Of a stretch of DNA of 64,000 nt, positions 14,463 through 35,610 are shown in pieces. Under the pieces are notes generated by a model that was not told the DNA's origin, did no database searches, and saw only the letters and a program-made list of their open reading frames with translations. Numbering within the stretch: position 1 is the first letter of the stretch; each line of letters opens with the position of its first letter. The stretch covers positions 434,001-498,000 of the forward strand of contig NZ_AEEB01000017.1 in NCBI RefSeq assembly GCF_000179775.1, given 5' to 3'. This DNA is from Ahrensia sp. R2A130 (GTDB taxonomy: Bacteria; Pseudomonadota; Alphaproteobacteria; Rhizobiales; Rhizobiaceae). The position numbers were made by a program, and so were the translations under genes.

Positions 14463-14876
14463 ATGGAAAATTATGAAGTAGAAGACGACAGCGTGATGTT
14501 AGGACTCACAACGGAAGTTGTCTGTGCATATGTTGGCAACAATCCGATTGCTGCATCCGATCTCGCTGGTTTAATAAAAGAGGTGCACGGTGCCCTTCAC
14601 GGGCTGCAGGCTCCGGCGCCCGAGCCTGAGCCAGAAAAACCCGTACCAGCCGTATCGATCCGTAAGTCGCTAAAAGACGACTATCTGATCTGCCTGGAGG
14701 ATGGGAAGAAATTCAAGTCGCTGAAACGGCATTTGAAAACCCACTACGATCTCTCCCCCGAACAATACAGAGAGAAGTGGGGCTTGCCGTCAGATTATCC
14801 AATGGTCGCGCCGAACTACGCCGCAGAGCGCTCTCGGCTTGCCAAGAAGATGGGGCTTGGCCGAAAGGCCAGCTAA
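14463..14876 (+). CDS. mucR: MucR/Ros-family zinc-finger transcriptional regulator
   Basis: 137 residues, the standard length. The C-terminal half carries the prokaryotic zinc finger with Cys77, Asp80, His90 and His94 (C-x2-D-x9-H-x3-H, the variant in which Asp replaces the second cysteine), then YDLSPEQYREKWGLPSDYP, the family hallmark. The N-terminal part (TTEVVCAYVGNNPI) is the oligomerisation region. MucR proteins are H-NS-like silencers that bind A+T-rich DNA and control exopolysaccharide, motility and cell-cycle genes in Rhizobiales. An AAGGAAAT ribosome site precedes the ATG, and an intrinsic terminator follows 54 bases after the stop. Confidence 0.94.
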   Translation: MENYEVEDDSVMLGLTTEVVCAYVGNNPIAASDLAGLIKEVHGALHGLQAPAPEPEPEKPVPAVSIRKSLKDDYLICLEDGKKFKSLKRHLKTHYDLSPEQYREKWGLPSDYPMVAPNYAAERSRLAKKMGLGRKAS

Positions 14877-15030: not shown

Positions 15031-15052
15031 TATAGGATAATGGTCCTATAAT
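15031..15052 (+). promoter_or_regulatory. Palindromic operator overlapping the gafY -10 box
   Basis: Perfect inverted repeat TATAGGA-N6-TCCTATA at 15031-15050. It overlaps a perfect -10 hexamer TATAAT at 15047-15052, 30 bases before the gafY ATG. The -35 region is poor (TTGTTC or TTCTTT). The geometry suggests a dimeric repressor blocking this promoter, but the binding protein is unknown. Confidence 0.6.
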
Positions 15053-15081
15053 TACGTGACTTGAACGATGAGGGTTCGTCT

Positions 15082-15663
15082 ATGAATGGGAAGTTGAAAT
15101 CGAGAAGTGTTGGTTTCCTGAATGAGCGGTCTTCCAAAGGGCCGCTGCAATTGCATCACGCAGGAGATGAGGTCACGCCATTTGCGCCTATTAACCCAGT
15201 AGGGCGTTATTCGCCGCTGCGCGCTGATCCCAATATTTTCCGGCTCGAACCGTCTCTCGACCTTGAACATTTGGGCACTCGACAGCGCGACCATTCCGGC
15301 AATTACCGTAATGCGGTGTGCAGCTTATGCAGCAGGACTGTCGCAATCGCTCTCCAGGTTTCGCTGGACGCATTGAATTCACCGGATCGGGAAAACGGTG
15401 AAACGTCCAAGGCACGACAGATTGCAATGTATCTAAGCGCAACGATGTTCAACTTGTGCGCAACCGAAGTTGGTCGGGCATTCAAGCGGGATCGTACCAC
15501 CGTGGCCTACGCTTTGGAGCGAATCGAAGAACAGCGTGAAGACCCGGAGTTCGATTTTATTCTGGTGCAACTGGAGGACCTTCTCAGTGACGCCCGCCAT
15601 GCCATATCCCTGTGCTACGATTACTTTGATGGTGGTAGCGTCAGAATTCTGGAGGAGGTGTAG
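15082..15663 (+). CDS. gafY: GafY-like gene transfer agent activator with DnaA-type DNA-binding domain
   Basis: 193 residues from ATG 15082, which has GAGGG 8 bases upstream (a TTG at 15061 is less likely). The C-terminal half, about residues 110-150, resembles DnaA domain IV: ARQIAMYLSATM..., then EVGRAFKRDRTTVAYAL, the helix-turn-helix with the DnaA signature (D-R/H-T-T-V). Replication-initiator function is excluded because domains I-III are absent. Rhodobacter GafA joins a DnaA-like domain to a DUF6456-type domain. In Caulobacter these are two adjacent genes, gafY and gafZ, that together switch on the GTA. Here the partner follows after 2 bases. The name is inference from domains, order and the GTA cluster nearby. 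Confidence 0.72.
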   Translation: MNGKLKSRSVGFLNERSSKGPLQLHHAGDEVTPFAPINPVGRYSPLRADPNIFRLEPSLDLEHLGTRQRDHSGNYRNAVCSLCSRTVAIALQVSLDALNSPDRENGETSKARQIAMYLSATMFNLCATEVGRAFKRDRTTVAYALERIEEQREDPEFDFILVQLEDLLSDARHAISLCYDYFDGGSVRILEEV

Positions 15664-15665
15664 TT

Positions 15666-16454
15666 ATGGATGCATCTTCAAACACAAAACTCGCGGTCAG
15701 AATTCTGGAATTTCTGTCCCACCACGCGTGTGTCACCAGCAAACCATTTCTTGAAGCAACCGATTCTGTCGAGCATCGCGTTATTCTAACCGCGGATAAC
15801 AATCGTTCGATGGTTGCCACGACTTCCGCGATTTCCGTTTTGGAAGCTGCTGATGTGCTGCGCTTGGACGGATCGGATATCTCACTTACGGCTATTGGCA
15901 AAGCGCGAGCTCGCCGGGCGAAAGCCGTGTTGGATGGCGCACGGGACGGCGGCTTTGCAGAGCAACATCAAAAACGCCGGGCAACCAACATCAATGTGAA
16001 CGGAGCAACCACCAGTGTCTGTGTGGATGACCATGAGTCCCCGTTGTCACGGCTCAGACTACGTAAGGGAAAAGACGGCGCCCCTTGGATTGACGATGCG
16101 GCTTACGCGGCGGGAGAACGGCTGCGTTTGGACTTCACCCGGGCCCAGTTGATGCAGAAGGTAACGTCCAGTTGGGATCCAACATCAGGCTCACGCCAGA
16201 GAGGCGGTGCTGGCGGAAAGGCGGAACTTGGTGACAACGCTATAGATGCACGCGCACGACTTGAAGCTGTCCGTCGTCAACTGGGTGACGATCTGTGTGG
16301 TGTTGCGTTGGATGTGTGCTGTTATTTGAAGGGGTTGCAAACCGTTGAGCGGGAACGGTCTTGGCCACCTAGGTCAGCAAAACTGATGCTGCGCACTGCA
16401 TTGGTGATTTTGTCGAACCACTACGGAACAAAAGCTGGGCATCAGTCAAACTAA
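15666..16454 (+). CDS. gafZ: GafZ-like DUF6456 protein, partner of GafY
   Basis: 262 residues. The N-terminal part (residues 1-80) looks like a winged-helix domain (LAVRILEFLSHHACVTS..., SVLEAADVLRLDG). The C-terminal part (about 120-255) is the DUF6456 domain, starting SPLSRLRLRKGKDG and continuing AAGERLRLDFTRAQLMQKV. This domain forms the C-terminal half of GafA, the direct GTA activator reported to contact RNA polymerase omega in Rhodobacter, and corresponds to Caulobacter GafZ. It starts 2 bases after the gafY stop with the ribosome site GGAGG inside the end of gafY, so the two are co-translated. The convergent sufE gene ends 3 bases away. Biochemical role inferred. Confidence 0.72.
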   Translation: MDASSNTKLAVRILEFLSHHACVTSKPFLEATDSVEHRVILTADNNRSMVATTSAISVLEAADVLRLDGSDISLTAIGKARARRAKAVLDGARDGGFAEQHQKRRATNINVNGATTSVCVDDHESPLSRLRLRKGKDGAPWIDDAAYAAGERLRLDFTRAQLMQKVTSSWDPTSGSRQRGGAGGKAELGDNAIDARARLEAVRRQLGDDLCGVALDVCCYLKGLQTVERERSWPPRSAKLMLRTALVILSNHYGTKAGHQSN

Positions 16455-16457
16455 AGC

Positions 16458-16880
16458 TCAGCTGGCTGCTGCTATGGCCTTTATACGATCCACCATGGCG
16501 CGCAGTCCGTTGGCGCGTTGTGGTGTGATGTGTTCTTCAAGTCCAATCTTCTGGAATGTCTCACGCTCATCAAGCGAAAGTATTTCAGACGGCGTTCTGT
16601 CTGAGAACAAAGCCAGTGTCACAGCCACCAGTCCGCTAACGATATGGGCGTCTGATGCTCCTCGGAACTGGAGTAGCCCACCCGCTTCTTGAGAAGTAAC
16701 CCACACTTGGCTGACACAGCCCTGAACTTTGGTTCTATCGTTTTTCAACGCATCATCCAGCGGAGTAAGCGCGCGGCCCAGTTCGATCAGGTAGCCATAG
16801 CGGTCGTCCCAATCATCAAGAAACGAGAAATTCTCGATGATTTCATCGATATCGGTGTCGAGGGTAAGTGCTGATGACAT
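16458..16880 (-). CDS. sufE: SufE-family cysteine desulfuration protein
   Basis: 140 residues. SufE accepts persulfide sulfur from the cysteine desulfurase SufS and passes it to the SUF iron-sulfur assembly scaffold. The acceptor cysteine lies in KVQGCVSQVW; DWDDRYGYLIELGR is the N-terminal family motif. I used ATG 16880; a GTG at 16901 would add seven residues, and neither has a strong ribosome site. Stands alone here, apart from other suf genes, as is common in Rhizobiales. Confidence 0.92.
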   Translation of the reverse strand: MSSALTLDTDIDEIIENFSFLDDWDDRYGYLIELGRALTPLDDALKNDRTKVQGCVSQVWVTSQEAGGLLQFRGASDAHIVSGLVAVTLALFSDRTPSEILSLDERETFQKIGLEEHITPQRANGLRAMVDRIKAIAAAS

Positions 16881-17021
16881 GGTGTCGTTTTCGCGTTTCA
16901 CTTTGGCCCAGCGTTAACGACAGTCAGTCGACAGGCCAAGTGGGCAGTTTGTCCAATTCCACGGGCTGCCGGCAGCTCACTTTGGAATTGCTGATTAAAA
17001 ATCTCGCTAAAATTTTCATGT

Positions 17022-24725: not shown

Positions 24726-25226
24726 GTGAGCGGCACCAAACCCGTTCAAAGTGAACGTCCGTACTGGGAAAGCGTGCCACTGGCAGAAATGTCACAGGAG
24801 CAATGGGAGGCTTTATGCGACGGCTGCGGACGATGCTGCCTGCAAAAGCTGGAAGATTGGGACACGGGCGAGATCGCGTTTACAAATGTCGCCTGCCTGC
24901 TGCTGGACGGCGATACCTGCCAATGTCGCGATTACGAGAACCGCTTCGATACCGTGCCTGACTGCGTGCAGCTTAAGCCAAGCGACATCGGCCAATATGC
25001 ATGGCTCCCGCCCACATGTGCATATCGTTTGCTTGATGAGGGAAAAGCATTGCGACCTTGGCACCCGCTGATCAGCGGGGATCCTCAAACGGTGCATGAA
25101 GCTGGAATTTCTGTTTCGGGGCAGACTGTTAGCGAGGAGGGGCTATCAATCGAAGAGTGGGAAAAATACATTGTAGGGTGGCCCAATGTAGATAAAAAGG
25201 AAAAAAATCATAAAATAGGAAAATAG
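24726..25226 (+). CDS. YcgN family cysteine-cluster protein (UPF0260)
   Basis: 166 residues from GTG 24726 with AGGAG 8 bases upstream. The family's zinc- or iron-binding cysteine cluster appears as LCDGCGRCCLQKLED near residues 30-45, followed by CLLLDGDTCQCRDYENR and PDCVQL, the usual YcgN arrangement. Function unproven. The gene ends 3 bases before the -35 element of the GTA promoter, and the last codons are strikingly A+T-rich (Lys/Asn/Ile), acting as an upstream element for that promoter. Confidence 0.88.
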   Translation: MSGTKPVQSERPYWESVPLAEMSQEQWEALCDGCGRCCLQKLEDWDTGEIAFTNVACLLLDGDTCQCRDYENRFDTVPDCVQLKPSDIGQYAWLPPTCAYRLLDEGKALRPWHPLISGDPQTVHEAGISVSGQTVSEEGLSIEEWEKYIVGWPNVDKKEKNHKIGK

Positions 25227-25229
25227 GCG

Positions 25230-25264
25230 TTGACTGCGGTGCGGTCGTCGTGTAGTCTTAAGAC
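25230..25264 (+). promoter_or_regulatory. Promoter of the GTA structural operon with palindrome at -10
   Basis: TTGACT at 25230-25235, 17-base spacer, TAGTCT at 25253-25258. An A+T-rich stretch lies directly upstream and a TGCGG direct repeat in the spacer (25235-25244). A perfect 10-base palindrome GTCTTAAGAC (25255-25264) covers part of the -10 and the likely start region, a possible operator. No other promoter of this quality is visible before the GTA genes. Confidence 0.65.
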
Positions 25265-25347
25265 ACAATCGGAGAACTGGGCCACTGGCGCTTCGATACA
25301 CAACAAATTGCCTGTCGGCGCTTCACCATCTGGTGCGGCGCTTTTTT
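25265..25347 (+). ncRNA. Putative short leader RNA of the GTA operon
   Basis: If transcription starts about 6-7 bases after the -10, an RNA of about 80 bases would end at the terminator at 25318-25347 without reaching g1. The segment holds three direct copies of GGCGCTT (25287, 25317, 25337). GCGC is self-complementary, so the first copy could pair with the second and prevent the terminator from forming. I do not recognise a known small-RNA family. Confidence 0.45.
25318..25347 (+). terminator. Leader terminator or attenuator ahead of GTA g1
   Basis: Stem of GCGC (25318-25321 with 25338-25341), a 2x2 internal loop, CACC/GGTG (25324-25327 with 25332-25335), an ATCT loop, then six Ts. It lies 41 bases before the g1 start and downstream of the operon promoter, so full-length transcription must read through it. 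Confidence 0.65.
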
Positions 25348-25388: not shown

Positions 25389-25838
25389 ATGAAGCAGCCT
25401 AACAGGCATAAATGGTTGGCCGCTCGACGTTTGCACGAAGCTTACGGTGTCGATCATCACGTTATTGCCGATGTTGCCGACACGACCTTAGCCGCGATCC
25501 GCTATCGCGCATCAAGCGAAGGATGGGGCCACCCTGGCATGGCCTTCGCGCTTCATGCGCGGCTGCTGAAACTCGTTGAGGCGCAGTTCGACCGCATCGC
25601 CAACAGTGATGAAAGTATCGAGAAAACTGCCCGTGCAACTGCGTCGGTGGCGAAGATCGTCGAGGATGCACTCGATCACGATAACAAAGAACGCGAGAAA
25701 TTTGCCAATGATCGATACGCCGATGACAAAAACGGCAGTGACGATGACTGGCGGAAAACTTTCCTCGCGCGAGTGGAAGATGCAGCTCGGGCAGAATGCG
25801 AAGACGGAAACGGGAAACAGCCTCTTAGCGCCATTTGA
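25389..25838 (+). CDS. GTA gp1-like small terminase
   Basis: 149 residues from ATG 25389, with TAGGAG at the proper distance; the frame is open further upstream but would cross the promoter. The N-terminal part (HKWLAARRLHEAYGVDHHVIADV..., ASSEGWG) looks like a small-terminase helix-turn-helix. The middle is helical (suited to oligomer formation) and the C-terminal third strongly charged with Asp/Lys/Glu. In R. capsulatus, g1 encodes the small terminase that supports headful packaging with little sequence specificity. Assignment rests mainly on position directly before the large terminase. Confidence 0.72.
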   Translation: MKQPNRHKWLAARRLHEAYGVDHHVIADVADTTLAAIRYRASSEGWGHPGMAFALHARLLKLVEAQFDRIANSDESIEKTARATASVAKIVEDALDHDNKEREKFANDRYADDKNGSDDDWRKTFLARVEDAARAECEDGNGKQPLSAI

Positions 25839-27087
25839 GCTGGCGAACCAAACCGAAGCGGAGGGATTTTGGCCGCCAAAGGCGCGGCTGTCGCAACTCC
25901 CACCTGAAGGAAATTGGTCGACGTGGTTGCTGATGGGCGGGCGCGGTTCCGGCAAGACCAGAACTGGTGCCGAATGGGTGAAAGGCATGGTTCTCGGTCA
26001 AGACTGGTGCACGCTACGTGCTGTTGGAAGCATTGCGCTTGTGGGTGAAACATATGCGGATATCCGCGAAGTTATGGTGGATGGCGAGTCCGGTCTGTTG
26101 GCTATTCATGCCTCCAATGAGCGCCCGATCTTTGTCAGTTCGCGGCGGCGTCTGGAATGGCAAAACGGAGCGGTAGCACAGCTGTTTTCATCCGAAGATC
26201 CGGATGGCTTGCGTGGGCCGCAATTTGAAATTGCCTGGTGCGATGAATTGGCGAAATGGAAAAACGCCGAAGCGACATGGGACACACTTCAACTTGGTCT
26301 TCGATTGGGTAATTGCCCCCGTCAGGTTGTCACAACAACACCAAAAGCGGTGCCTTTGCTGAAACGGATCATCAACGATCAAGCCACGGTGATTTCGCGC
26401 ATGAGAACGGTAGAAAACGAGGCGCACTTGGCTCCCAATTTTCTGGATCGCGTCACCAAGCTCTACGGCGGCACGTCGCTAGGCCGTCAGGAACTCGACG
26501 GTGAATTGATCGAGGATCGCGAAGACGGTCTTTGGTCACGTCCCATGTTGCAGCGGTGCCGTGTTCGCAAACATCCACCGCTGCAGCGTATCATCGTTGC
26601 CGTCGATCCACCGGTGACCGGCCACGCGCATTCCGATGCATGCGGTCTGGTTGCCGTGGGGCAGGGCGAGGATGGACAAGCCTATATATTGGAGGACCGG
26701 ACGATTGGGGCGGTGTCGCCGGCCCGATGGGCTGCGGCCGCTGTCGCGCTGTACAGGCGGTTGGGCGCAGACCGTCTGGTCATCGAAACCAACCAGGGCG
26801 GCGACATGGCCGAAAGCGTTCTGCGCGCAGTCGATCCTGATCTGGCGATCAAACAGGTGAAGGCAACACGGGGAAAATGGTTGCGGGCCGAGCCCGTAGC
26901 TCACCTTTATGAGCGGGGGCTGGTCCACCACGTCGGGCCGCTGCCAGAACTCGAAGACGAAATGTGCGACTTCGGCCTTGATGGCCTCAGTCGTGGATCA
27001 TCTCCAGACAGGCTCGATGCGCTGGTCTGGGGACTGACGGAATTGATGCTCAAACGGACGGGCTCGCCGCGCGCGCGCTCCATCTGA
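25780..27087 (+). CDS. GTA large terminase (gp2)
   Basis: 435 residues from ATG 25780, overlapping the g1 end by 59 bases (ATG 25744 is an alternative). The ATPase domain has Walker A GGRGSGKT with Lys59, and a Walker B-like AWCDELAKW followed by a TTTPKAVPLL coupling motif. The C-terminal RNase H-like nuclease shows acidic positions in VAVDPPVTGHAHSDACG, VIETNQGGD and SPDRLDALVWGLTEL. It powers and cuts host DNA during packaging into particles. All catalytic landmarks are present, so the gene looks functional. Confidence 0.93.
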   Translation: MQLGQNAKTETGNSLLAPFELANQTEAEGFWPPKARLSQLPPEGNWSTWLLMGGRGSGKTRTGAEWVKGMVLGQDWCTLRAVGSIALVGETYADIREVMVDGESGLLAIHASNERPIFVSSRRRLEWQNGAVAQLFSSEDPDGLRGPQFEIAWCDELAKWKNAEATWDTLQLGLRLGNCPRQVVTTTPKAVPLLKRIINDQATVISRMRTVENEAHLAPNFLDRVTKLYGGTSLGRQELDGELIEDREDGLWSRPMLQRCRVRKHPPLQRIIVAVDPPVTGHAHSDACGLVAVGQGEDGQAYILEDRTIGAVSPARWAAAAVALYRRLGADRLVIETNQGGDMAESVLRAVDPDLAIKQVKATRGKWLRAEPVAHLYERGLVHHVGPLPELEDEMCDFGLDGLSRGSSPDRLDALVWGLTELMLKRTGSPRARSI

Positions 27088-27135
27088 CGACACGGCAGGC
27101 AGCTTTTCGCTGCTGCCCAACAACAGGAACATTTT

Positions 27136-28341
27136 ATGAAACATCCGTTCCGCTGGTTCGCGCCGGCGCGATCCGGCACGTCTGCCGGTCACCAGATTGA
27201 AGAAAAAGCAGCAGCGCCCATGAATTCGGCAATGTTTGCGATAGCTGGTTCCGGCACGGCCATCTGGTCGAATGCCGACTACGCCACAATGGCAAAGCGT
27301 GGCTACATGTCGAACCCGGTCGTCTATCGCTGCATCAGGCACATTGCCCAAACCGCCGCTGCTGTGCCTCTTCTGGCCTATGATGGCGCACAGGAGCTCG
27401 ACACCCATCCAGCGCTCGATCTGCTGCGGCGCCCCAATGAGCGTCAAGGCGGTTCGGATTTTATGGAGGCGCTGATCGGGCATCTTCTGGTGTCCGGCAA
27501 TGCCTATATTCACGGTGCCGCTATTGATGGCGCTCCCCGTGAACTGCATCTTCTGCGTCCCGATCAGGTCGTTGCAACCACAGGCCGTGATGGCTGGGTG
27601 ACGGGTTACGAACACACCAGTGGCACGGCCCGCACCCGATACATGGCTGATGAGGCTGATGGCTGGTTGCCGGTTCTCCATATTGCGCTGTTCCACCCAC
27701 TTGAGGACGCGCAGGGTTTTGCACCGCTTCAAGCTGCGCTGACCGCGCTAGATGTTCACAACGCCGCCAACCGCTGGAACAAGGCGCTGCTGGACAATTC
27801 AGCCCGTCCATCCGGCGCGCTGGTTTATAGCGGTGGCCATGATGACAACCTGACCGACGAGCAATTTTCTCGTCTCAAATCCGAACTGGAAGATGGATAT
27901 ACGGGAACAGCAAGCGCTGGCCGACCTTTGCTCCTCGAAGGCGGTCTCGATTGGAAACCAATGGGGCACAGCCCCAAGGATATGGACTTCATCGAAGCGC
28001 GAAACGGTGCTGCGCGAGATATCGCGCTCGCCTTCGGCGTACCGCCAATGTTGCTAGGAATTCCCGGTGACGCGACCTACGCCAATTACCGCGAGGCCAA
28101 TCGCGCATTTTTACGTCATACGATGGTGCCAACGCTATCGCGCATTCTGGATGGCCTGTCCCACTGGCTTGCCCCCCGCTTCGAGGGCGGGCTGCGCCTG
28201 GCCATGGACGAAGACTGTATCGATGGTCTCGGCGAGGACCGGCAGGCCATATGGGATCGACTGAAAGACGCGGATTATCTGACCGATGATGAGAAACGCG
28301 AGATGTTGGGCTTCTCGCCAATGTCGGAGGCCACAAAATGA
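27136..28341 (+). CDS. GTA portal protein (gp3, HK97 family)
   Basis: 401 residues of the HK97-type phage portal family, the dodecameric ring through which DNA enters and leaves the head. Landmarks are SNPVVYRCIRHIAQTAAAVPL near residues 58-80, RPNERQGGSDFMEALIGHLLVSGNAYI, WNKALLDNSARPSGALVY and, later, FGVPPMLLGIPGDATYANYREANRAF. An AGGAA ribosome site precedes the ATG. The stop overlaps the protease start (ATGA), leaving no room for the small g3.5 gene found here in R. capsulatus. Confidence 0.93.
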   Translation: MKHPFRWFAPARSGTSAGHQIEEKAAAPMNSAMFAIAGSGTAIWSNADYATMAKRGYMSNPVVYRCIRHIAQTAAAVPLLAYDGAQELDTHPALDLLRRPNERQGGSDFMEALIGHLLVSGNAYIHGAAIDGAPRELHLLRPDQVVATTGRDGWVTGYEHTSGTARTRYMADEADGWLPVLHIALFHPLEDAQGFAPLQAALTALDVHNAANRWNKALLDNSARPSGALVYSGGHDDNLTDEQFSRLKSELEDGYTGTASAGRPLLLEGGLDWKPMGHSPKDMDFIEARNGAARDIALAFGVPPMLLGIPGDATYANYREANRAFLRHTMVPTLSRILDGLSHWLAPRFEGGLRLAMDEDCIDGLGEDRQAIWDRLKDADYLTDDEKREMLGFSPMSEATK

Positions 28342-29009
28342 CCGCTGCACCGGAAATCAAACGCAGCGTCCTGCGTGTCGAAGAACTATCCGAAAACGGC
28401 ACCTTCAGCGGTTACGCCAGCCTTTTCGGTAAAACCGATCTTGGGAAGGATCGCGTCGAACGGGGTGCATTCCGCAAATCGCTGAAAGTCCGAGGCGTCG
28501 CAGGCGTCCGCATGTTGTACCAACATGATCCGGCAAGTCCCATAGGGACATGGCTCGACATTCGCGAGGATGCGAAAGGGCTTCTGGTAAAGGGGCGCAT
28601 TGTCGAAGACACGCCTCGTGGTGCCGAAGTTCTGACTCTCATGCGCGCTGGTGCGGTGGACGGCTTGTCCATCGGTTTCAAAACGATCCGCTCGAAGCCC
28701 GCAGGGCAGGCAGGCGTGCGCTCAATTCTCGAAGCCGATCTTTGGGAAATTTCTATCGTGACCTTCCCGATGCTGCCGCAAGCGCGGGTATCGCAAGTCA
28801 AATCGGGTGCCGGACAGGCTTTGCCGTCCGTTCGCACCTTCGAACGCTGGCTCACGCGGGATGCTGGGCTGTCGAGAAGTCAGGCGAAGACGATCATCGC
28901 CAAGGGCTTCGTCCACCTTTCGGGTCAGCGGGACGCTGCGCCTACTTCAGCCGATATGGCCGCCAGAATTCGGCAGGCCACCGCGCTGATGCAATCTCAC
29001 CGCACATAA
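28338..29009 (+). CDS. GTA prohead maturation protease (gp4)
   Basis: 223-residue HK97-type prohead protease (peptidase family U35) that trims the capsid protein's N-terminal scaffold during head maturation. The catalytic histidine is in YQHDPASPIG and the serine in DGLSIGF, with TFPMLPQA after the core. The last 70 residues (FERWLTRDAGLSRSQAK...) are a helical extension common in GTA versions. Start overlaps the portal stop by 4 bases. Confidence 0.92.
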   Translation: MTAAPEIKRSVLRVEELSENGTFSGYASLFGKTDLGKDRVERGAFRKSLKVRGVAGVRMLYQHDPASPIGTWLDIREDAKGLLVKGRIVEDTPRGAEVLTLMRAGAVDGLSIGFKTIRSKPAGQAGVRSILEADLWEISIVTFPMLPQARVSQVKSGAGQALPSVRTFERWLTRDAGLSRSQAKTIIAKGFVHLSGQRDAAPTSADMAARIRQATALMQSHRT

Positions 29010-29034
29010 CGAAATTGAACAGGACGTGTTGCAC

Positions 29035-30291
29035 ATGACCGCACACCACACCGCCGCCCCCGAAACGAAAATGGGAACTGGTACAGACGTCGCCGAAGCT
29101 TTCGACGACTTCATGATGGCCTTCGAGGCCTTCAAGGAAACCAACGACGAGCGCCTCGCGCAAATCGAAACACAAGTCACCGCCGATCCGGTAACCGAAG
29201 AAAAGATGGCCCGGATCGACCGCGCTGTCGAAGACCATAAACGCCGCCTCGACAACATGCTGCTGAAAAGTCAGCGACCATCTCTGTCGTCCGGTGGCGT
29301 TGTCACCAGCGCAGCGCAGATGGAGCACAAATCGGGCTTCCACTCTTACATGCGAAACGGCTCCGATCATGGCCTTCGCGGGCTGGAAGAGAAGGCGATG
29401 TCCGTCTCATCCGACCCCGATGGCGGCTACCTCGTGCCGGAGGAATTGTCGACCGAGATCGGTCGTCGCCTTGCTGCTATCTCGCCCATCCGCTCGATTG
29501 CCAGCGTTCGTGAGGTCTCCGGCAACGTCTATAAAAAGCCGTTCGCATCCACCGGTCCGGTGGTCGGCTGGGTCGGCGAAACGGAGGCTCGGGCAATCAC
29601 CGCGTCGCCGTCGCTGGCCGAACTGCAGTTCCCGACAATGGAACTCTACGCCATGCCGGCAGCAACTTCTGTGTTGCTGGAAGATACGGCCATCGATCTA
29701 GACCGATGGATTGGCGAAGAAGTCGAAGTGGCGTTTGCCGAGCAGGAAAGCGCTGCCTTCATCAACGGTGATGGCGTCAATAAACCTACAGGCTTCTTGA
29801 GCGCCTCGCAGGTTGATGAGACCAACTGGTCATGGGGCAATCTCGGCACCATCGCCACGGGCGCTGCAGGTGAGTTCGATCCGGCAACAGGTGCCGACGT
29901 GCTGGTGGATACGATCTACGCGCTGAAGGCGGGCTACCGTCAGAACGCCAGCTTCGTGATGAACCGCCGAACCCAGGCGGAAATCCGTAAGTTGAAAGAC
30001 GCCGATGGAAACTACCTGTGGCAGGCTCCGGCCATGCCGGGCACTGCAGCGATGCTGATGGGCTTCCCGGTCGTTGAAGCGGAAGACATGCCGGACATTG
30101 CCAACGACGAAACGGCAATCGCCTTCGGCGACTTCCGTCGCGGTTACCTCGTGGTGGACCGGACCGGCGTTCGCGTGTTGCGCGATCCGTATTCTGCAAA
30201 ACCCTACGTGCTCTTCTACACCACCAAGCGTGTTGGCGGCGGTATTCAGGACTTCGATGCCATCAAACTGGTGAAATTCGGCACGGCGTAA
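29035..30291 (+). CDS. GTA major capsid protein (gp5, HK97 fold)
   Basis: 418 residues from ATG 29035 (AGGA 10 bases upstream; a GTG at 29026 is too close to it). The first 100 residues form an acidic coiled-coil delta domain expected to be removed by gp4. The HK97 major capsid core follows, with DPDGGYLVPEEL, GWVGETEARAIT, SAAFINGDGVNKPTGFL, FVMNRRTQAEIRKLKDADGNYLW and GFPVVEAEDMP. Forms the icosahedral shell. Base composition and codon choice look more biased here than in the distal tail genes, in line with high expression. A double hairpin follows the gene. Confidence 0.94.
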   Translation: MTAHHTAAPETKMGTGTDVAEAFDDFMMAFEAFKETNDERLAQIETQVTADPVTEEKMARIDRAVEDHKRRLDNMLLKSQRPSLSSGGVVTSAAQMEHKSGFHSYMRNGSDHGLRGLEEKAMSVSSDPDGGYLVPEELSTEIGRRLAAISPIRSIASVREVSGNVYKKPFASTGPVVGWVGETEARAITASPSLAELQFPTMELYAMPAATSVLLEDTAIDLDRWIGEEVEVAFAEQESAAFINGDGVNKPTGFLSASQVDETNWSWGNLGTIATGAAGEFDPATGADVLVDTIYALKAGYRQNASFVMNRRTQAEIRKLKDADGNYLWQAPAMPGTAAMLMGFPVVEAEDMPDIANDETAIAFGDFRRGYLVVDRTGVRVLRDPYSAKPYVLFYTTKRVGGGIQDFDAIKLVKFGTA

Positions 30292-30306
30292 GCCCCTCCC
30301 ACTTGC

Positions 30307-30392
30307 GGTGGATCGGGTTCTAGAACCCGCCCGATCCACCTTCCGTGCCGTCAGACGGCCCTGCTTTCGCATGTCGAGAGTGGGGCCGTTTT
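30307..30392 (+). terminator. Tandem hairpins and intrinsic terminator between capsid and connector genes
   Basis: First hairpin: perfect 11-base stem, 30307-30317 with 30330-30340, also containing the palindrome GGGTTCTAGAACCC. Second hairpin: ACGGCCC/GGGCCGT (30355-30361 with 30383-30389), extended inside by CTTTCG/CGAGAG, then a T run to 30392. The second has every feature of a rho-independent terminator, yet sits inside the operon. Likely a partial terminator that boosts capsid over downstream products. Confidence 0.8.
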
Positions 30393-30436
30393 TGTTTTCA
30401 GAAACGGGTTCCCATCAATTTCGGGAGAAAGATCAC

Positions 30437-31009
30437 ATGACCACAGCCATAATCACGCCGCCTGCACTGGAGCCGTTAACGCTCGCAGATGCGAAACTGC
30501 ATTTGCGTATCGAACATGCCGATGAAGACGACTTCATCACTCAAACCATCGCTGCCGCCCGTCAGTATGTCGAAGCGGTTACTGGCGAACGCATGTTGAC
30601 CCAAGCCTGGCGGCAATACGTTTCCGACTGGCCGTCCAACCGAGGCGTGCGTCTGGAAATTTCGCCGGTCCAATCTGTAGTGGCCGTCACTGCATTCGAC
30701 CGTGAAGGTGTGCCTCATCAGATCGCGCCGGAAGACACGGAACTCGTGCGCGGCAGTCGCCCGCAACTGTTGATGTTTTCCGCAAGCGTCGATCCGAGTT
30801 TGGCGGCAAATGGTCTGGAGATCGATCTGACGGTCGGGCAGGGCGACCTTCCCACGGATGTTTCGCCCGCACTGCGACAGGCCGTCGCGATGCTGGTAGC
30901 CCATTGGTACGAATTTCGGGGCGCCGTCTCGCCATCGCAACAGCCCGTATCGCTGCCCGCCGGTCTCGACGCGTTGCTGCGTCCCTTCAAACGTGTGGGG
31001 CTGACATGA
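30437..31009 (+). CDS. GTA head-tail connector (gp6-like)
   Basis: 190 residues from ATG 30437 with GGGAGA upstream. Matches the head-tail connector family (gp6/phiE125 gp8-like): PLTLADAKLHLRIEHADEDDFI at the N-terminus and AARQYVEAVTGERML, QAWRQYVSDWP, SPVQSVVAVTAFD, then LRQAVAMLVAHWYEFRGAV. It forms the adaptor ring beneath the portal. It starts 45 bases after the intra-operon terminator. Stop overlaps the next ATG. Confidence 0.88.
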   Translation: MTTAIITPPALEPLTLADAKLHLRIEHADEDDFITQTIAAARQYVEAVTGERMLTQAWRQYVSDWPSNRGVRLEISPVQSVVAVTAFDREGVPHQIAPEDTELVRGSRPQLLMFSASVDPSLAANGLEIDLTVGQGDLPTDVSPALRQAVAMLVAHWYEFRGAVSPSQQPVSLPAGLDALLRPFKRVGLT

Positions 31010-31341
31010 GCCGAACTTTTCACGATCCCGGTGCGCTGAACCACCGTATGGGCCTGGAAAGTTTGCTCGAAACCGCTGACGGTATCGGCTCGCTCGACAA
31101 GCAGTTTCAACCGGTGGCTACCGTATGGGCTGCCCTCGAACCGAAGCGCCATGATGAACGCCTGCTCGCGCAACAGATCGACGAACAGGGTAGTCACATC
31201 ATCACAATCCGCTTTCGACCCGACGTGGCGACCGGTTGGCGCTTTGTGGAAGGCGACCGTTCGTTCGAGATCGTCGCCATCACCGACCCCGACGAGCGAC
31301 ACCGCTATCTGCAATGCCATACGAAGGAGGTCGCTCGATGA
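31006..31341 (+). CDS. GTA head-tail adaptor / head closure protein (gp7-like)
   Basis: 111 residues in ATGA overlap with both neighbours. It has the SPP1 gp16/HK97 head-closure pattern: an N-terminal GALNHRMGLESL..., TVWAALEPKRHDE, ITIRFRPDVATGWRFVEGDRSFEIVAITDPDERHRYL and a short end. These small beta-barrel proteins close the connector after packaging and receive the tail. Confidence 0.87.
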   Translation: MSRTFHDPGALNHRMGLESLLETADGIGSLDKQFQPVATVWAALEPKRHDERLLAQQIDEQGSHIITIRFRPDVATGWRFVEGDRSFEIVAITDPDERHRYLQCHTKEVAR

Positions 31342-31577
31342 ACCTGTCGTTGAAATTGACCGCCAATTCGCTGTCGCGTGCGTTGACGCAGCTGACAAAA
31401 ACACCTGCCTTCGATGACGCCATGGAAACTGCGGCTAACGAAGCTGCTGATCGCCTCGAACCGTCTTTGGCAGCATCAGGCAGCGATTTTCAGCCGCGCA
31501 TTGTGTCGAGCGCTAACGGTCCTGTTCTCAAGGCCGCCGCAACCGATGCAGCTATTGTGCGCGAGGTGCTGACATGA
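31338..31577 (+). CDS. Small GTA protein between head closure and tail terminator
   Basis: 79 residues with start and stop each overlapping a neighbour by 4 bases, strong evidence that it is translated. N-terminus LSLKLTANSLSRALTQLTK, then an acidic helix EAADRLEPSLAASG. Position and size suggest a reduced HK97 gp10-like neck protein, which is usually longer (over 100 residues). I cannot prove that from sequence. No motif indicates enzymatic function. Confidence 0.7.
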   Translation: MNLSLKLTANSLSRALTQLTKTPAFDDAMETAANEAADRLEPSLAASGSDFQPRIVSSANGPVLKAAATDAAIVREVLT

Positions 31578-31990
31578 AGGATGCAACTCTCGCTGTTCAT
31601 AAGGCAGCGTACCAAGCGCTTTATGCCGACACCGACCTACAAGCCGAACTCGGTGGCGCGCGTATTTTTGACCGGGTGCCGGAACGCGCCCGCCCGCCTT
31701 ACGTCGTTCTGGGTGATGCGCGCAGCGACGACTGGAGCACCGCGACCGAAGGCGGCGAAGCCATCGTTTTCTTCGTTCACATTTGGACCCGCAGTGGTCA
31801 CCGGCGCGACAACCATGCGCTGCAGGCCCACGCAAAACGCATCCTCACCGCAGATGGCCTGACCATCGAAGACCACCATCTCGTGGCGCAACGCTATCAG
31901 TTTTCCGACACGAGACGCGACCGCTTGCACGGTTATCTGCACGGCGTGCTGCGTTTTCGTGCGGTTACCGAACCTGTGACCAACATCTGA
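31574..31990 (+). CDS. GTA DUF3168 protein, tail terminator (gp8-like)
   Basis: 138 residues of DUF3168, the tail-terminator/tail-completion family that caps the tail tube. Landmarks are ALYADTDLQAELGGARIFDRVPERARPPYVVLGDARSDDW-type segments in the first half and HIWTRSGHRRDNHALQAHAKRIL in the second. ATGA overlap with the preceding small gene; the tube gene follows after 24 bases. Confidence 0.9.
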   Translation: MKDATLAVHKAAYQALYADTDLQAELGGARIFDRVPERARPPYVVLGDARSDDWSTATEGGEAIVFFVHIWTRSGHRRDNHALQAHAKRILTADGLTIEDHHLVAQRYQFSDTRRDRLHGYLHGVLRFRAVTEPVTNI

Positions 31991-32014
31991 TCCCACCACA
32001 TTCAGGAGGCCATC

Positions 32015-32431
32015 ATGGCTGCCCAAAAAGGAAAAGATCTTCTGCTGAAGATCATCGACCCCATCTCACAACTTCCCACCACGGTTGCTGGAATGCGAAG
32101 CCGACGCATCGCATTCAACGCTGAAAGTGTCGACGTGACGGATTTCGAAAGCGCCGGTCGCTGGCGTGAACTGCTGGCAGGCGCAGGGGTTCAACGCGCT
32201 GCGATTTCCGGCTCCGGCATATTCAAAGACGCTGCGTCCGACGCGAAAATCCGCACGCAGTTTTTTGCTGGTGCGGTCACGCGCTTCCAAACCGTATTGC
32301 CGGACTTCGGCACGCTCGAAGGCGACTTCCAGATCGTATCGCTAGAGTACGGCGCGGAACATAATGGCGAAGTGACCTTCGACATGTCGCTGGAATCTGC
32401 AGGTGCGATCACCTTCACGGCAGCAGCCTAA
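32015..32431 (+). CDS. GTA major tail protein, TP901-1 family (gp9)
   Basis: 138 residues of the TP901-1 major tail tube family. Landmarks are AAQKGKDLLLKI, TVAGMRSRRIAFNAESVDVT, AGRWRELLAGAGVQ and SGSGIFKD. The C-terminus is a Thr/Ala-rich strand. A full AGGAGG ribosome site stands 6 bases before the ATG, in keeping with a high-copy structural protein. Its stop shares one base with the next start (TAATG). Confidence 0.93.
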   Translation: MAAQKGKDLLLKIIDPISQLPTTVAGMRSRRIAFNAESVDVTDFESAGRWRELLAGAGVQRAAISGSGIFKDAASDAKIRTQFFAGAVTRFQTVLPDFGTLEGDFQIVSLEYGAEHNGEVTFDMSLESAGAITFTAAA

Positions 32432-32778
32432 TGGTGAACCGTCATCGTGGAGAAATACCCGCACGGCTGGACGGCCGCGATTGGACCATGTGTTTGACAC
32501 TTGGCGCGTTGGCAGAGTTGGAAGCTGCATTCGAAGCTGATGATCTGCAAACGCTCGCCGAGCGTTTTTCAAAAGGCAAGCTTCGCGCGCGAGATCTGAG
32601 CCGCATCATTACAGCCGGGCTGCGCGGGGCAGGGCACTTGGTCGAGCTGGAAGAGGTAGAGCAGATGCAGGCTGACGGCGGCGCAATCGGCTTCGCGCGA
32701 CTGGCTGGCGAACTGCTGCAAGTCACCTTTGGCGAACCCTTCGATGAAAATAATGTTCAGGCAAAAGTCATTGGCTGA
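32431..32778 (+). CDS. GTA tail chaperone-like protein (gp10)
   Basis: 115 residues of the gene transfer agent family found only in GTA clusters (gp10-like, tail assembly chaperone group). Landmarks are GEIPARLDGRDWTMCLTLGALAELEAAF and LRARDLSRIITAGLRGAG. Begins within the stop of the tube gene. Its end overlaps the following chaperone gene in a different frame, as in phage G/T tail chaperone pairs. Confidence 0.88.
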   Translation: MVNRHRGEIPARLDGRDWTMCLTLGALAELEAAFEADDLQTLAERFSKGKLRARDLSRIITAGLRGAGHLVELEEVEQMQADGGAIGFARLAGELLQVTFGEPFDENNVQAKVIG

Positions 32779-33004
32779 GCCGCAACCGTTTCCATGGGCT
32801 GAAGCCATGGCCTTCGGCTTCGGGCGCTTGAAACTTTCATCGGCTGAATTCTGGGCACTCACCTTACCGGAACTGGCAGCTGCTATGCGCGCTTACGGTT
32901 TGGGTGAGCCAAATACTGTCGATCGAGACTGGTTGAATGGGGCGCTCAAAGACCACCCTGACCCGCAGCCAAACATCACTATGGGAGATGAATATGACCG
33001 ATGA
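32744..33004 (+). CDS. GTA tail assembly chaperone (gp10.1, rcc01693-like)
   Basis: About 86 residues in a frame shifted relative to gp10, overlapping it by 35 bases. Recognisable as the phage tail assembly chaperone of GTAs by PFPWAEAMAFGFGRLKLSSAEFWALTLPELAAAM. The start is uncertain (ATG 32744 or 32753, TTG 32729), and none has a clear ribosome site, so it may be translated by coupling or frameshifting from gp10. The following tape measure gene overlaps its end by 11 bases. Confidence 0.8.
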   Translation: MKIMFRQKSLAEPQPFPWAEAMAFGFGRLKLSSAEFWALTLPELAAAMRAYGLGEPNTVDRDWLNGALKDHPDPQPNITMGDEYDR

Positions 33005-33575
33005 TGAATTGGCCGTCACCATACCGGTAAAGGCTGACATAGCACCGTTTTCGGACGCCTTGGGCAGTCTGGAAAAGCAGAGCGACCGTTTCGGCCGCGC
33101 CTTTTCCAGTAGCCTCAAATCCGCTGTCACCAGTGGGCGCAGTTTCAACGACACGTTGAAAGACATGGCACTGCGCATGAGTTCCATCGCGTTGGATGCA
33201 GGTTTCAAACCTCTTGAGAACCTGGCGTCGGGGTTATTCCAGAACCTTGCCTCAGCTCTCGTCCCATCTGGTTTCGGTGGGGGCGGGGGAACACCCGCAA
33301 TCACGCCGTTTGCAAAAGGTGGGATCGTCGCTTCGCCCACTTTTTTCGGCTCCGGCGGCAGCGTTGGGTTGATGGGTGAGGCAGGTGCAGAAGCCATTAT
33401 GCCGCTGTCCCGCGGCAGCGATGGCAAGCTGGGTGTGAAGATGCAGGGCGGCTCTGCTCCCGTGAATGTGACGTTCAACGTGTCCACCCCGGATGCCACC
33501 AGCTTCCGGCGGTCGCAGTCGCAGCTGTCCGCAATGCTCGCCCGCACTGTCGGTCGCGGTCAGCGCAATCTCTGA
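32994..33575 (+). CDS. GTA tape measure protein (gp11)
   Basis: 193 residues from ATG 32994 (GGGAG upstream; ATG 32988 is possible). Very short for a tape measure protein, as is normal in GTAs with short tails. The N-terminal helix region (PFSDALGSLEKQSDRFGRAFSSSLKSAV...) is followed by a Gly-rich stretch (SGFGGGGG), then the FAKGGIVASPTFF...GLMGEAGAEAIMPLSRGSDGKLGV motif that ends many tape measure proteins. Sets tail length. Confidence 0.9.
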   Translation: MTDDELAVTIPVKADIAPFSDALGSLEKQSDRFGRAFSSSLKSAVTSGRSFNDTLKDMALRMSSIALDAGFKPLENLASGLFQNLASALVPSGFGGGGGTPAITPFAKGGIVASPTFFGSGGSVGLMGEAGAEAIMPLSRGSDGKLGVKMQGGSAPVNVTFNVSTPDATSFRRSQSQLSAMLARTVGRGQRNL

Positions 33576-33593
33576 TTTGAAAAGGGCGCAACG

Positions 33594-34247
33594 ATGCCTC
33601 TCGACAACCAATTTCACGATGTGCGGTTTCCGACCGACATCGCGCTTCAATCCAGCGGCGGCCCGATGCGGGAGACGCGAATTGTAACGCTCGGCTCAGG
33701 ACGCGAACAGCGCAACCAGCGTTGGGCGCGATCCAGACGCCGGTTCGAAGCGGGGTATGGCGTGAAAGACATGGAGGCTTTGCGCCGTGTCGTTGCTTTC
33801 TACGAAGCAAGGCGTGGACCGCTTCACCCGTTCCGCTATCGCGATCCACTGGACTGGAGCACTGCTGCTGAGGGGCAACCTATAAGCAGCGATGACGAAT
33901 TGTTGGGTGTTGGCGACGGTGTGCAAACTTCGTTCGTGCTTTCGAAGGCCTATGGCGAAGAGGCGACATCAGCCTATCGACGGTCAATCGATCTGCCGAC
34001 ATTGAGCACGCTTGTGATCGCTGTCGATGGTGTTGCGTCAACTCTAGACCAGGACTTCGACGCCGACCTGACACCGGGAACGGTCACCTTTCGGCAAGGG
34101 CATGCTCCGCCTGAGGGAGCCACTGTTACCGCTGGTTTCGAGTTCGACGTTCCGGTGCGGTTCGAGGCTGACGAATTGATGGTCAATCTGGCCGCGTTCA
34201 CCGCAGGCGAGGTGCCGTCCATTCCACTCATGGAGGTTCTGCTGTGA
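33594..34247 (+). CDS. GTA distal tail protein, DUF2460 (gp12)
   Basis: 217 residues of DUF2460/TIGR02217. Landmarks are FPTDIALQSSGGP, GREQRNQRWARSRRRFEAGYGVK, VVAFYEARRGPLHPFRYRDPLDW and the end AFTAGEVPSIPLMEVLL. The protein forms the distal tail ring linking tube to baseplate. Its stop overlaps the GTG start of gp13 (GTGA). Confidence 0.92.
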   Translation: MPLDNQFHDVRFPTDIALQSSGGPMRETRIVTLGSGREQRNQRWARSRRRFEAGYGVKDMEALRRVVAFYEARRGPLHPFRYRDPLDWSTAAEGQPISSDDELLGVGDGVQTSFVLSKAYGEEATSAYRRSIDLPTLSTLVIAVDGVASTLDQDFDADLTPGTVTFRQGHAPPEGATVTAGFEFDVPVRFEADELMVNLAAFTAGEVPSIPLMEVLL

Positions 34248-35125
34248 GAGCGTTTTCACCTGAACTAACAAGCCATCTGTTCAAGGATGCAACGACACTT
34301 TGCACCTGCTGGATCGTTCGACGGCGCGACGGTGCCGTGTTGGGCTTTACCGATCATGATGCACCATTGGATGTTGATGGAACCCGCTGCGAAGCGGCCA
34401 CTGGTTTCGAGCCGACCACGGCAGTAACCGAACTCGGACTGGCACCCGACAACCAGCAGATTGCTGGTGCGCTAAGCGCAGACGCCATTTCCTCTGAAGA
34501 CTTGCAACTTGGCAGATATGATGGAGCAAATGTTGAGGTCTGGTTGGTGAACTGGGCGCGTGCTGATAGTCAAAAACACCATCTTCGCACCTTCATTTTG
34601 GGTGAGGTTGTACGTTCGGGTGCTGCTTTTTCCGCCGAGCTTCGCGCCTTGGCGAGCTTGCTCGACCAACCGATTGGACGAACGTTCAGCCGCAGTTGTG
34701 ATGCAACCGTTGGGGACAGCAGATGCGGTGTCGACCTCTCCGACAGCCGGTTCCGTTTTGAGGCTCAGGTAATATCTGTCACCGATCGCCTAACAGTAGA
34801 AATAATTGACCCGATCAGCTTCGATGACGGCTGGTTCTCAAACGGCAAATTGCGTTGGGTATCGGGGAGGAATTCCGGCACGTCGAGCGAGATTTCCCGT
34901 CACGTCGGCAAACGCATTTCGTTGTGGCAAGCACCCGCGTTTCCACCTTCTTCAGACGATCAATGTGTGCTCACGGCAGGGTGCAACAAGACATTCGCGC
35001 AATGCCGTAACCGTTTTGAAAACGGCGATAACTTTCGCGGTTTTCCCCATATGCCCGGTGGCGATCTTTCGCTTGGCTACGCTGATCGTGACACGCTGCA
35101 TGACGGTTCGCCTCTCGTCGTCTGA
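34244..35125 (+). CDS. GTA baseplate hub protein, DUF2163 (gp13)
   Basis: 293 residues from GTG 34244, the DUF2163 family. The N-terminus LTSHLFKDATTLCTCWIVRRRDG and DAISSEDLQLGRYDGANVEVWLVNW are typical. The C-terminal part has conserved cysteines (SCDATVGDSRCGVDL, LTAGCNKTFAQCRNRF) ending ENGDNFRGFPHMPGGD. The four-cysteine set is where the R. capsulatus structure shows an iron-sulfur cluster in the hub; all four appear retained here. Confidence 0.9.
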   Translation: MRAFSPELTSHLFKDATTLCTCWIVRRRDGAVLGFTDHDAPLDVDGTRCEAATGFEPTTAVTELGLAPDNQQIAGALSADAISSEDLQLGRYDGANVEVWLVNWARADSQKHHLRTFILGEVVRSGAAFSAELRALASLLDQPIGRTFSRSCDATVGDSRCGVDLSDSRFRFEAQVISVTDRLTVEIIDPISFDDGWFSNGKLRWVSGRNSGTSSEISRHVGKRISLWQAPAFPPSSDDQCVLTAGCNKTFAQCRNRFENGDNFRGFPHMPGGDLSLGYADRDTLHDGSPLVV

Positions 35126-35145
35126 TCTACTCTTTAGGAGTTTCT

Positions 35146-35610
35146 ATGAAAAATCATGAAGTGGGCGAGCGCGTCGTTGCAACGGCGCGCCAATGGCTAG
35201 GCACGCCCTACATCCATCAAGCCTCTGTAAAAGGTGTCGGTGCAGATTGTATCGGGCTCATTCGCGGGGTCTGGCGCGAGGTGGAAGGCCAAGAACCACA
35301 GCAACTGCCGAACTATTCTAGCACATGGTCAGATCCCACGGGCCAAGAAGACCTGTTGGTGGCCGGATACACTCACTTTCGTGAAGTGGCATTTGGTGAA
35401 GATCAGCCGGGCGATGTGCTCATTTTCCGTATGCGCCGCGGCTCGGCTGCAAAGCATGCTGGCATTCTGTCGAGCAGCCGTCACTTCATTCATGCTTACG
35501 AAGGCAACACGGTCGTAGAGAGTGCATTATCCTCTTTCTGGTCTGATCGCATAGGCGGTATTTTCCGCTTTCCTTCATCTGTTTGTAGCGATGTGAAGGA
35601 GCCAGACTAA
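35146..35610 (+). CDS. GTA NlpC/P60 cell wall peptidase (gp14)
   Basis: 154-residue NlpC/P60 cysteine peptidase of the phage tail type. Catalytic Cys35 in GADCIGLIRG, His104 in AKHAGIL, and a third polar site at His116 (HAYEG). Expected to sit at the tail tip and cut recipient peptidoglycan during DNA entry. TAGGAG precedes the ATG, and the stop overlaps the gp15 start by one base. Confidence 0.93.
   Translation: MKNHEVGERVVATARQWLGTPYIHQASVKGVGADCIGLIRGVWREVEGQEPQQLPNYSSTWSDPTGQEDLLVAGYTHFREVAFGEDQPGDVLIFRMRRGSAAKHAGILSSSRHFIHAYEGNTVVESALSSFWSDRIGGIFRFPSSVCSDVKEPD

Follow-up and report, generated by a model that had tools for sequence, protein, structure and literature searches.

A split gafY-gafZ pair upstream of a GTA cluster, with a conserved GTA promoter and a candidate operator shared by the two control regions

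The window, by which we mean the whole 64,000-nucleotide stretch of Ahrensia sp. R2A130 DNA analysed here, carries two genes on the same strand, gafY before gafZ, separated by two bases (15664-15665) and situated as follows.

14463..14876, + strand: mucR-type regulator gene (PF05443), upstream neighbour of gafY
15031..15050, no strand assigned: candidate gafY operator TATAGGATAATGGTCCTATA, core TAGGA-N6-TCCTA, overlapping a putative -10 TATAAT at 15047-15052
15082..15663, + strand: gafY, predicted from sequence; DnaA-domain-IV-like DNA-binding protein, 193 aa from ATG
15666..16454, + strand: gafZ; DUF6456 protein, 262 aa, putative anti-terminator by homology to Caulobacter GafZ
16458..16901, - strand: sufE-type gene (PF02657), downstream neighbour of gafZ

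An alternative TTG start at 15061 would extend GafY to 200 aa. Profile searches assigned residues 85-148 of GafY to Bac_DnaA_C (PF08299; 52 bits versus a cut-off of 31.5) and residues 120-254 of GafZ to DUF6456 (PF20057; 144.1 bits versus 26.3), bearing out an earlier note on this DNA, which had described two genes 2 bases apart with a DnaA-type helix-turn-helix and a DUF6456 domain. Opposite ends of PHROG 31864 matched the two proteins (E 2e-4 and 0.0065). All four solved sequences found for GafY among PDB chains are DnaA, the best at E 6e-8. An AlphaFold2 model of GafZ from 12 sequences reached pLDDT of about 90 at residues 131-160 and 191-250 and was poor over most of the rest; Foldseek returned no significant match to it (best of any kind E 0.4), with sigma factors within the top 50.

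The cited papers were available in part, and statements attributed to them refer to those parts. In Rhizobiales, gafA can be split (Fogg 2019, PMC6363796), and the split pair of Hyphomicrobiales is described with mucR upstream and sufE downstream (Sherlock & Fogg 2022, PMC9638019), which is the local order mucR-gafY-gafZ-sufE of the window. Homologues of gafA were reported in 196 of 208 genomes (Kogay 2022). Here the two halves are separate ORFs and not a single fused GafA polypeptide. One protein of 314 aa, encoded on an IMG/VR contig (L346), combines a C-terminal DUF6456 over the cut-off with an N-terminal DnaA_C-like helix-turn-helix below the cut-off, as would fit GafY and GafZ being two halves of one ancestral protein. 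Overall, domains, order and synteny support assignment of gafY-gafZ as the Hyphomicrobiales split GafA, and the earlier proposal that these genes are the GafA halves, present as separate GafY and GafZ, stands. The type of pair was already known, since split gafA, its mucR/sufE synteny and a part in GTA control are in print, as far as the available text goes.

DUF6456 gave a single match in the 3.73 Mb assembly (rated 94.9% complete), and Bac_DnaA_C gave three: gafY, a 610-codon frame whose strong match marks it as the presumed dnaA, and a protein on contig C39. The last was considered as a second GafY and rejected; it is surrounded by phage-type genes, with a DnaB-like helicase close by as judged by eye. 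A C-terminal HWG..DYRP-like tail, kept by 66 of 80 GafZ proteins in a loose test, is missing from the window's GafZ (16395-16454); we dropped the tail as a mark of GafZ function, because the same loose test fails also in 13 of 79 others.

Two observations on related loci are recorded here. Close to gafY, 32 of 80 gafZ loci (motif test; one genome counted twice) encode a small basic protein whose end resembles ERERLKGxRRHWSYDLNRHIALKQALDRL, for example at L008:175-522(-) and L010:2887-3159(+), and in the loci read its gene stands divergently between mucR and gafY; no such gene was found between mucR and gafY in the window. Its position is like that of rcc01866 beside Rhodobacter gafA, and homology to rcc01866 was set aside with no convincing family match. 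The record MW462191.1:64124-88615 (L334), titled 'Bacteriophage sp.', repeats the window's gene order of regulator, gafY-like gene, gafZ-like gene and sulfur-acceptor gene, with annotated resistance genes nearby; as a phage-borne split gafYZ it was rejected, because its genes look bacterial chromosomal.

Downstream of the pair, on the same strand, lie the GTA genes.

25389-39443, + strand: whole GTA cluster, of RcGTA type (terminase, portal, protease, capsid, connectors, tail tube, DUF2460, NlpC, GTA_TIM hub)
25389..25838, + strand: first GTA gene, 149 aa, in the position of Caulobacter gtaT
25576..39443, + strand: head-tail part of the cluster, terminase frame through hub, by profile matches

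The first of these genes had no Pfam or NCBIfam match. The GTA promoter described below begins 8.8 kb after the gafZ stop, in agreement with the earlier statement that a GTA cluster lies about 9 kb from the pair on the same strand. In a family sample of 61 genomes, one per genus, DUF6456 occurs in 50, the terminase in 49 and the GTA_TIM domain in 47; DUF6456 and terminase are both present in 47 and both absent from 9, with DUF6456 alone in 3 and terminase alone in 2, relatedness not being controlled. The 47 genomes with both comprise 9 in which they fall on different contigs and 38 in which they share one, and in 33 of these 38 gafZ lies 9.1-21.3 kb upstream of the terminase on the same strand, measured between matched parts. 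Of the remaining five, two keep the order at separations of 46 and 72 kb, one has it reversed at 76 kb, and two have the genes on opposite strands, 57 kb and 1.76 Mb apart. Across an order sample of 199 genomes, DUF6456 was found in 163 and the GTA promoter pattern in 45, in a list that includes chance matches (the reversed pattern gives, by eye, about 20 in the order sample and 19 in the family sample). Among the matches listed, 46 lie outside the strain's own genome: 29 share a contig with DUF6456, 15 are on other contigs and 2 have no DUF6456 row. Within the 29 same-contig pairs, again among the matches listed, gafZ is 4.3-28.8 kb upstream of the promoter in 28, and 23 are on the same strand. 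Since distance and order are conserved across both samples, the linkage of gafYZ to the GTA is old in the order and no quirk of this strain.

In some relatives the GTA has collapsed to one open frame of 821-1056 codons, in which the ATPase part of the terminase (through a Walker B-like ..WCDE) is fused in frame to the C-terminal GTA_TIM hub (LGCPAVDKG..). Examples are L117 (G004), L118 (G033), L119 (G008), L354 (G282), L355 (G358), G335 C1:893379-895736 and G434 C98:700-2994. Matches spanning the junction occur in at least 7 of 297 family genomes and 6 genera, among the matches listed, and the junction is identical in the five that were read. Other species of four of these genera keep a separate hub, so the deletion probably recurred, perhaps via a short shared stretch. 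Three fusion genomes were checked, and each keeps gafYZ and the promoter.

Between the pair and the first GTA gene, the window has the following predicted control elements.

25216..25229, + strand: box preceding the GTA promoter, TAGGAAAATAGGCG; its left half agrees with that of relatives, and its right half, TCC in most of them, has changed
25230..25258, + strand: GTA core promoter TTGACT-N17-TAGTCT (putative -35 and -10), by pattern and matrix
25235-25246, + strand: candidate GafZ element in the promoter spacer, degenerate in the window (CGGTGCG instead of CGTnACG)
25265..25281, + strand: predicted GTA transcript start region, ACAATCGGAGAACTGGG; conserved, with the start site deduced from sequence
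25317..25342, + strand: intrinsic-terminator-like hairpin of -15.2 kcal/mol with CTTTTTTA directly after it, at +53 to +78 of the leader that precedes the first GTA gene

The promoter is recognisable well beyond this strain. Around the terminase, 26 of 30 family loci have a promoter within two mismatches of TTGAC-NN-CG-NNN-CGGT-N7-TAG, a pattern with no match at that tolerance in 204 kb of control sequence, and 24 of them yield the consensus TAgGAAAAaAnTCC-TTGACacCGTnACGGTGnTcnggTAGGgTTcaGncAcaGTCgnAnAatTGcG. A longer pattern, with one mismatch, precedes the terminase in 40 of the 49 terminase-bearing genomes, 346-1701 nt from the aligned part. Beyond these 40, the promoter matrix scores 39.8 to 76.6 bits in G004, G012, G031 and G059, the G012 promoter being a member of the matrix training set; the matrix scan found no recognisable promoter in three of the 49 (G018, G048 and G060) and only a partial one in G021, and G049 could not be judged because its terminase starts 404 bases into the contig. 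This 67-column matrix was built from 23 other genera with the window left out. It scores 55.0 bits at window position 25215, and the next site in the 64 kb, on both strands, is the gafY box at -27.2. The highest scores were -28 to -40 in five shuffled windows and no more than -30.5 in 30 control loci.

Searching public genomes with the derived pattern gave at least 120 stretches; a terminase lies downstream on the same strand in 61 of 80 listed loci, with 17 too short to tell and 2 having none, and in IMG/VR a terminase follows the pattern in 26 of 27. Positions specified in such a pattern are conserved by construction, and independent support comes from the downstream content and from matrices made without the tested locus. 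By title, the 80 listed public-genome records are Hyphomicrobiales or compatible with it except one, Bacillus subtilis SK6B4 (L232, JAHREI010000009.1), which bears the GTA promoter pattern and is probably a contaminated assembly. One relative, G028, has two further zero-mismatch matches with a similar upstream box away from the GTA (L125, C1:223602, and L126, C24:234733); one of them follows a dnaE-like frame and stands about 3.6 kb before response-regulator-like frames, as read by eye.

The gafY and GTA control regions share a conserved box. It is an inverted repeat, often TAAGAA or TAGGAA-N4-TTCCTA in relatives and TAGGA-TAATGG-TCCTA in the window, with nearly fixed spacing in many genera. 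On the gafY side it covers, in many relatives, a TATAAG read by eye as the gafY -10, 17 bp after TTCACA, and in the window it runs into TATAAT. On the GTA side it abuts the -35 in most relatives read, and in the window its right half is lost. Quantitatively, we used an operator matrix made from GTA promoters only, with the tested locus left out, at 23 loci having both gafY and a GTA promoter, the latter masked. The best remaining site fell no more than 420 nt upstream of the aligned gafY part in 16 of 23 loci, among the top three in 19 and among the top ten in 21; in the other two it ranked 44th and 62nd, and all scanned rows are counted although some low ranks may reflect where the aligned gafY part began. 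The gafY box of the window ranked first of 127,750 positions with the matrix from other genera's GTA promoters. The full 67-column matrix placed the gafY upstream stretch first in 0 of the 22 loci other than the window, and only the operator part is common to both promoters. In a wider set of 48 genomes (without L006, where no gafY was found, and L105, which is too short, and with G039, represented by L014 and L116, counted once), 31 gafY upstream stretches score above the 99th percentile of 980 shuffles, 17 of them above every shuffle; the window's own stretch is just under that percentile (13.0 versus 13.55).

Within the assembly, the exact TAGGA-N6-TCCTA occurs once, before gafY, and 17 other places have one mismatch. 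At this tolerance the box is not enriched, with 18 places versus 33 for the reversed control, and prediction of a regulon in the strain's own genome with AGRAA-N4-TYCYT was dropped for lack of power, with 44 matches versus 43 when the pattern was reversed. RogA is reported to bind two inverted repeats GGAA-N4-TTCC in the promoter region of Caulobacter gafYZ (Gozzi 2022, PMC9632790), and the shared box resembles this site in sequence.

For S24-type proteins the genome has three matches: LexA (named by NCBIfam), one on contig C39 and one on contig C38. The C39 protein has phage-type genes around it and no NCBIfam match. The C38 gene is not lexA, and its contig is not phage-type. Fifteen of the 18 assembly places were read, and one of them, a one-mismatch box at C38:58430-58445, stands just before the start of this S24 gene, ending 3 nt before a TTG and 15 nt before the likelier ATG. 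By simple arithmetic, with 17 places in 3.73 Mb a given 100-nt stretch would be struck about once in 2000 genomes; because boxes with up to one mismatch are fewer than in the reversed control, the case for an operator here rests on position, and it comes from one genome. The C38 protein (L136) matches PF00717 with 82.8 bits, over the cut-off, and HTH_26 with 19.8 bits, just under the cut-off of 22, giving the layout expected of RogA, an N-terminal helix-turn-helix and a C-terminal S24/LexA-like domain. When it is aligned with the genome's LexA alone, at 25% identity, its Ser155, Lys192 and Ala116-Gly117 fall on the corresponding residues of LexA. Caulobacter RogA is reported, in the available text, to be without the key residues (PMC9632790), and because L136 keeps the autocleavage residues we do not file it as RogA. 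The same source has RogA enriched only at gafYZ and CCNA_02002 and not at the GTA promoter. Taken together, we infer that the C38 S24 protein may be the repressor that binds the box.

A bolder version of this idea, which we put forward tentatively and hold to be doubtful, is that a single operator places gafYZ, the repressor's own gene and, in most relatives, also the GTA promoter under one LexA-like and still self-cleavable repressor. DNA damage would in that case induce the GTA directly, and GafZ would then overcome the leader terminator in the manner of lambda Q. If true, much of Hyphomicrobiales would have an SOS-wired form of the Caulobacter circuit.

The same box could instead be the site of GafY itself, which would activate the GTA from beside the -35 and autoregulate gafYZ, with a LexA-like repressor unneeded. 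Boxes at both promoters are what an autoregulated activator predicts, the GTA box does abut the -35, and Caulobacter GafY binds upstream of both the GTA cluster and gafYZ (PMC9632790). Its element there lies at -123 to -113 (PMC11150451), however, and the inverted repeat found here is of the GGAA-N4-TTCC type reported for RogA (PMC9632790). The position over TATAAG in many relatives, moreover, is a place fit for repression, and a copy of the box precedes the S24 repressor gene. GafY has a domain of DnaA type and, to our knowledge, DnaA boxes are not palindromes of this kind. We therefore consider a GafY site unlikely. Still less probable is silencing of gafYZ and the GTA by MucR bound to AT-rich boxes. 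MucR is a silencer at AT-rich sites, and mucR is the upstream neighbour of gafY here and in many relatives; but the box is more than AT-rich, being a defined inverted repeat of nearly fixed spacing in many genera, and mucR genes are generally common, with or without a GTA nearby. A repressor of the LexA/CI type at the shared box remains the reading that we prefer.

For the GTA promoter itself, Caulobacter again offers a precedent: GafZ is reported to act there as an anti-terminator, with a palindromic element located between -35 and -10 (PMC11150451). The spacer reads CGTnACG and then GTG in the majority of 190 distinct promoters, the flanking CG of CGTnACG being fixed by the search pattern; the inner T and A are present in 176 of 190, and not in the window. 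The set used 32 of the 44 distinct order-sample matches outside the strain's own genome, 12 having been dropped by eye as chance or poor matches, and the counts consequently lean towards the consensus. Over the 190 promoters the outer pair of the palindrome showed no covariation (p 0.36), and the inner pair gave p 0.0002 with relatedness not controlled; given the outer-pair value, the palindrome rests on core conservation. Of 38 distinct leaders (three promoters from one genome included), 17 contain a hairpin of -12 kcal/mol or stronger together with a T tract, versus 9.1% of 760 shuffles, and by the same test a strong terminator is absent from 21 of 38. The Caulobacter terminator lies after the first gene (PMC11150451). 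The leader hairpin fits anti-termination by GafZ, although it is not universal.

These observations suggest a model, to which we assign a probability of about 0.7 as a whole, in which the split GafA pair gafY-gafZ acts on the GTA 8.8 kb downstream, under a LexA/CI-like repressor and with GafZ anti-termination in the leader. What the DNA itself shows is the gene pair and its linkage to the GTA, together with the conserved promoter, the box common to both control regions and the hairpin. The repressor would shut the gafYZ promoter through TAGGA-N6-TCCTA over the -10 box and, in most relatives read, would also occupy the similar box abutting the GTA -35; upon its departure GafY and GafZ would be made. 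By analogy with Caulobacter, GafY would then activate the GTA promoter and GafZ would load at the element between -35 and -10, so that RNA polymerase reads through the leader terminator and transcribes the cluster. It is in this sense that we infer a GTA 'switch' in gafYZ. A role of gafYZ apart from the GTA, with promoter conservation as a relic of shared ancestry, is very improbable, even with DUF6456 lacking a GTA terminase in 3 of 61 family genomes and with three genomes retaining gafYZ and promoter beside a terminase-hub fusion, because DUF6456 and the terminase are strongly associated (47 genomes with both and 9 with neither, versus 5 with a single one, relatedness being uncontrolled) and because conservation of promoter and box persists between genera whose GafZ is just 29-40% identical to the window's.

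The shared conserved box in the control regions of activator and particle genes makes the proposed switch testable. GTA genes are common in Hyphomicrobiales, and the promoter and shared box name the few base pairs and the few proteins to examine. Recognisable by sequence alone, the promoter also offers a way to tell a still-wired GTA from a remnant. Anti-termination of the GafZ type may be met here in a simpler setting than in Caulobacter, with the terminator in the leader.

Among known systems, the split gafA of Hyphomicrobiales (PMC9638019) has the same succession of mucR, a DnaA-like gene, a DUF6456 gene and sufE; relative to the available text of that paper, GTA linkage, a Hyphomicrobiales GTA promoter and an operator are additions of the present analysis. 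A search of the literature, with most subscription papers outside its reach, found no Hyphomicrobiales GTA promoter, operator or leader terminator, and as far as that search goes three things go beyond what is in print: the conserved GTA promoter, the box common to the gafYZ and GTA control regions, and the LexA-like protein as a candidate repressor. Rhodobacter capsulatus GafA (PMC6363796) has both domains in the same order and is a direct GTA activator. Unlike the pair, it is a single fused polypeptide, and its central region makes contact with omega (PMC9638019); its gene is usually flanked by lipA and a GMP synthase gene, in contrast to mucR and sufE in the window. For the split pair, an omega contact is not supported: in the available text, omega was not enriched with GafZ in Caulobacter, and GafYZ resemble GafA least in its central region, through which the Rhodobacter protein binds omega (PMC11150451). 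Like lambda Q and Q21, the proposed GafZ mechanism combines a loading element between -35 and -10 with a terminator further down the transcript, although GafZ is described as having no sequence or structural similarity to known anti-terminators (PMC11150451). A further parallel is Caulobacter, where GafY and GafZ were named and where activation by GafY and IHF, anti-termination by GafZ and repression by RogA are described (Gozzi 2022, PMC9632790; Tran & Le 2024, PMC11150451). Both systems have a two-gene activator and an inverted repeat at gafYZ, here a candidate operator; the candidate element between -35 and -10 and the putative early terminator would be further common features. Several features differ from Caulobacter, as its papers were available: the GTA -35 is near consensus and, in most relatives read, adjoined by a similar box; the candidate spacer element has a different sequence; the terminator-like hairpin precedes the first gene, within the leader; and the protein proposed as repressor retains LexA-type catalytic residues.
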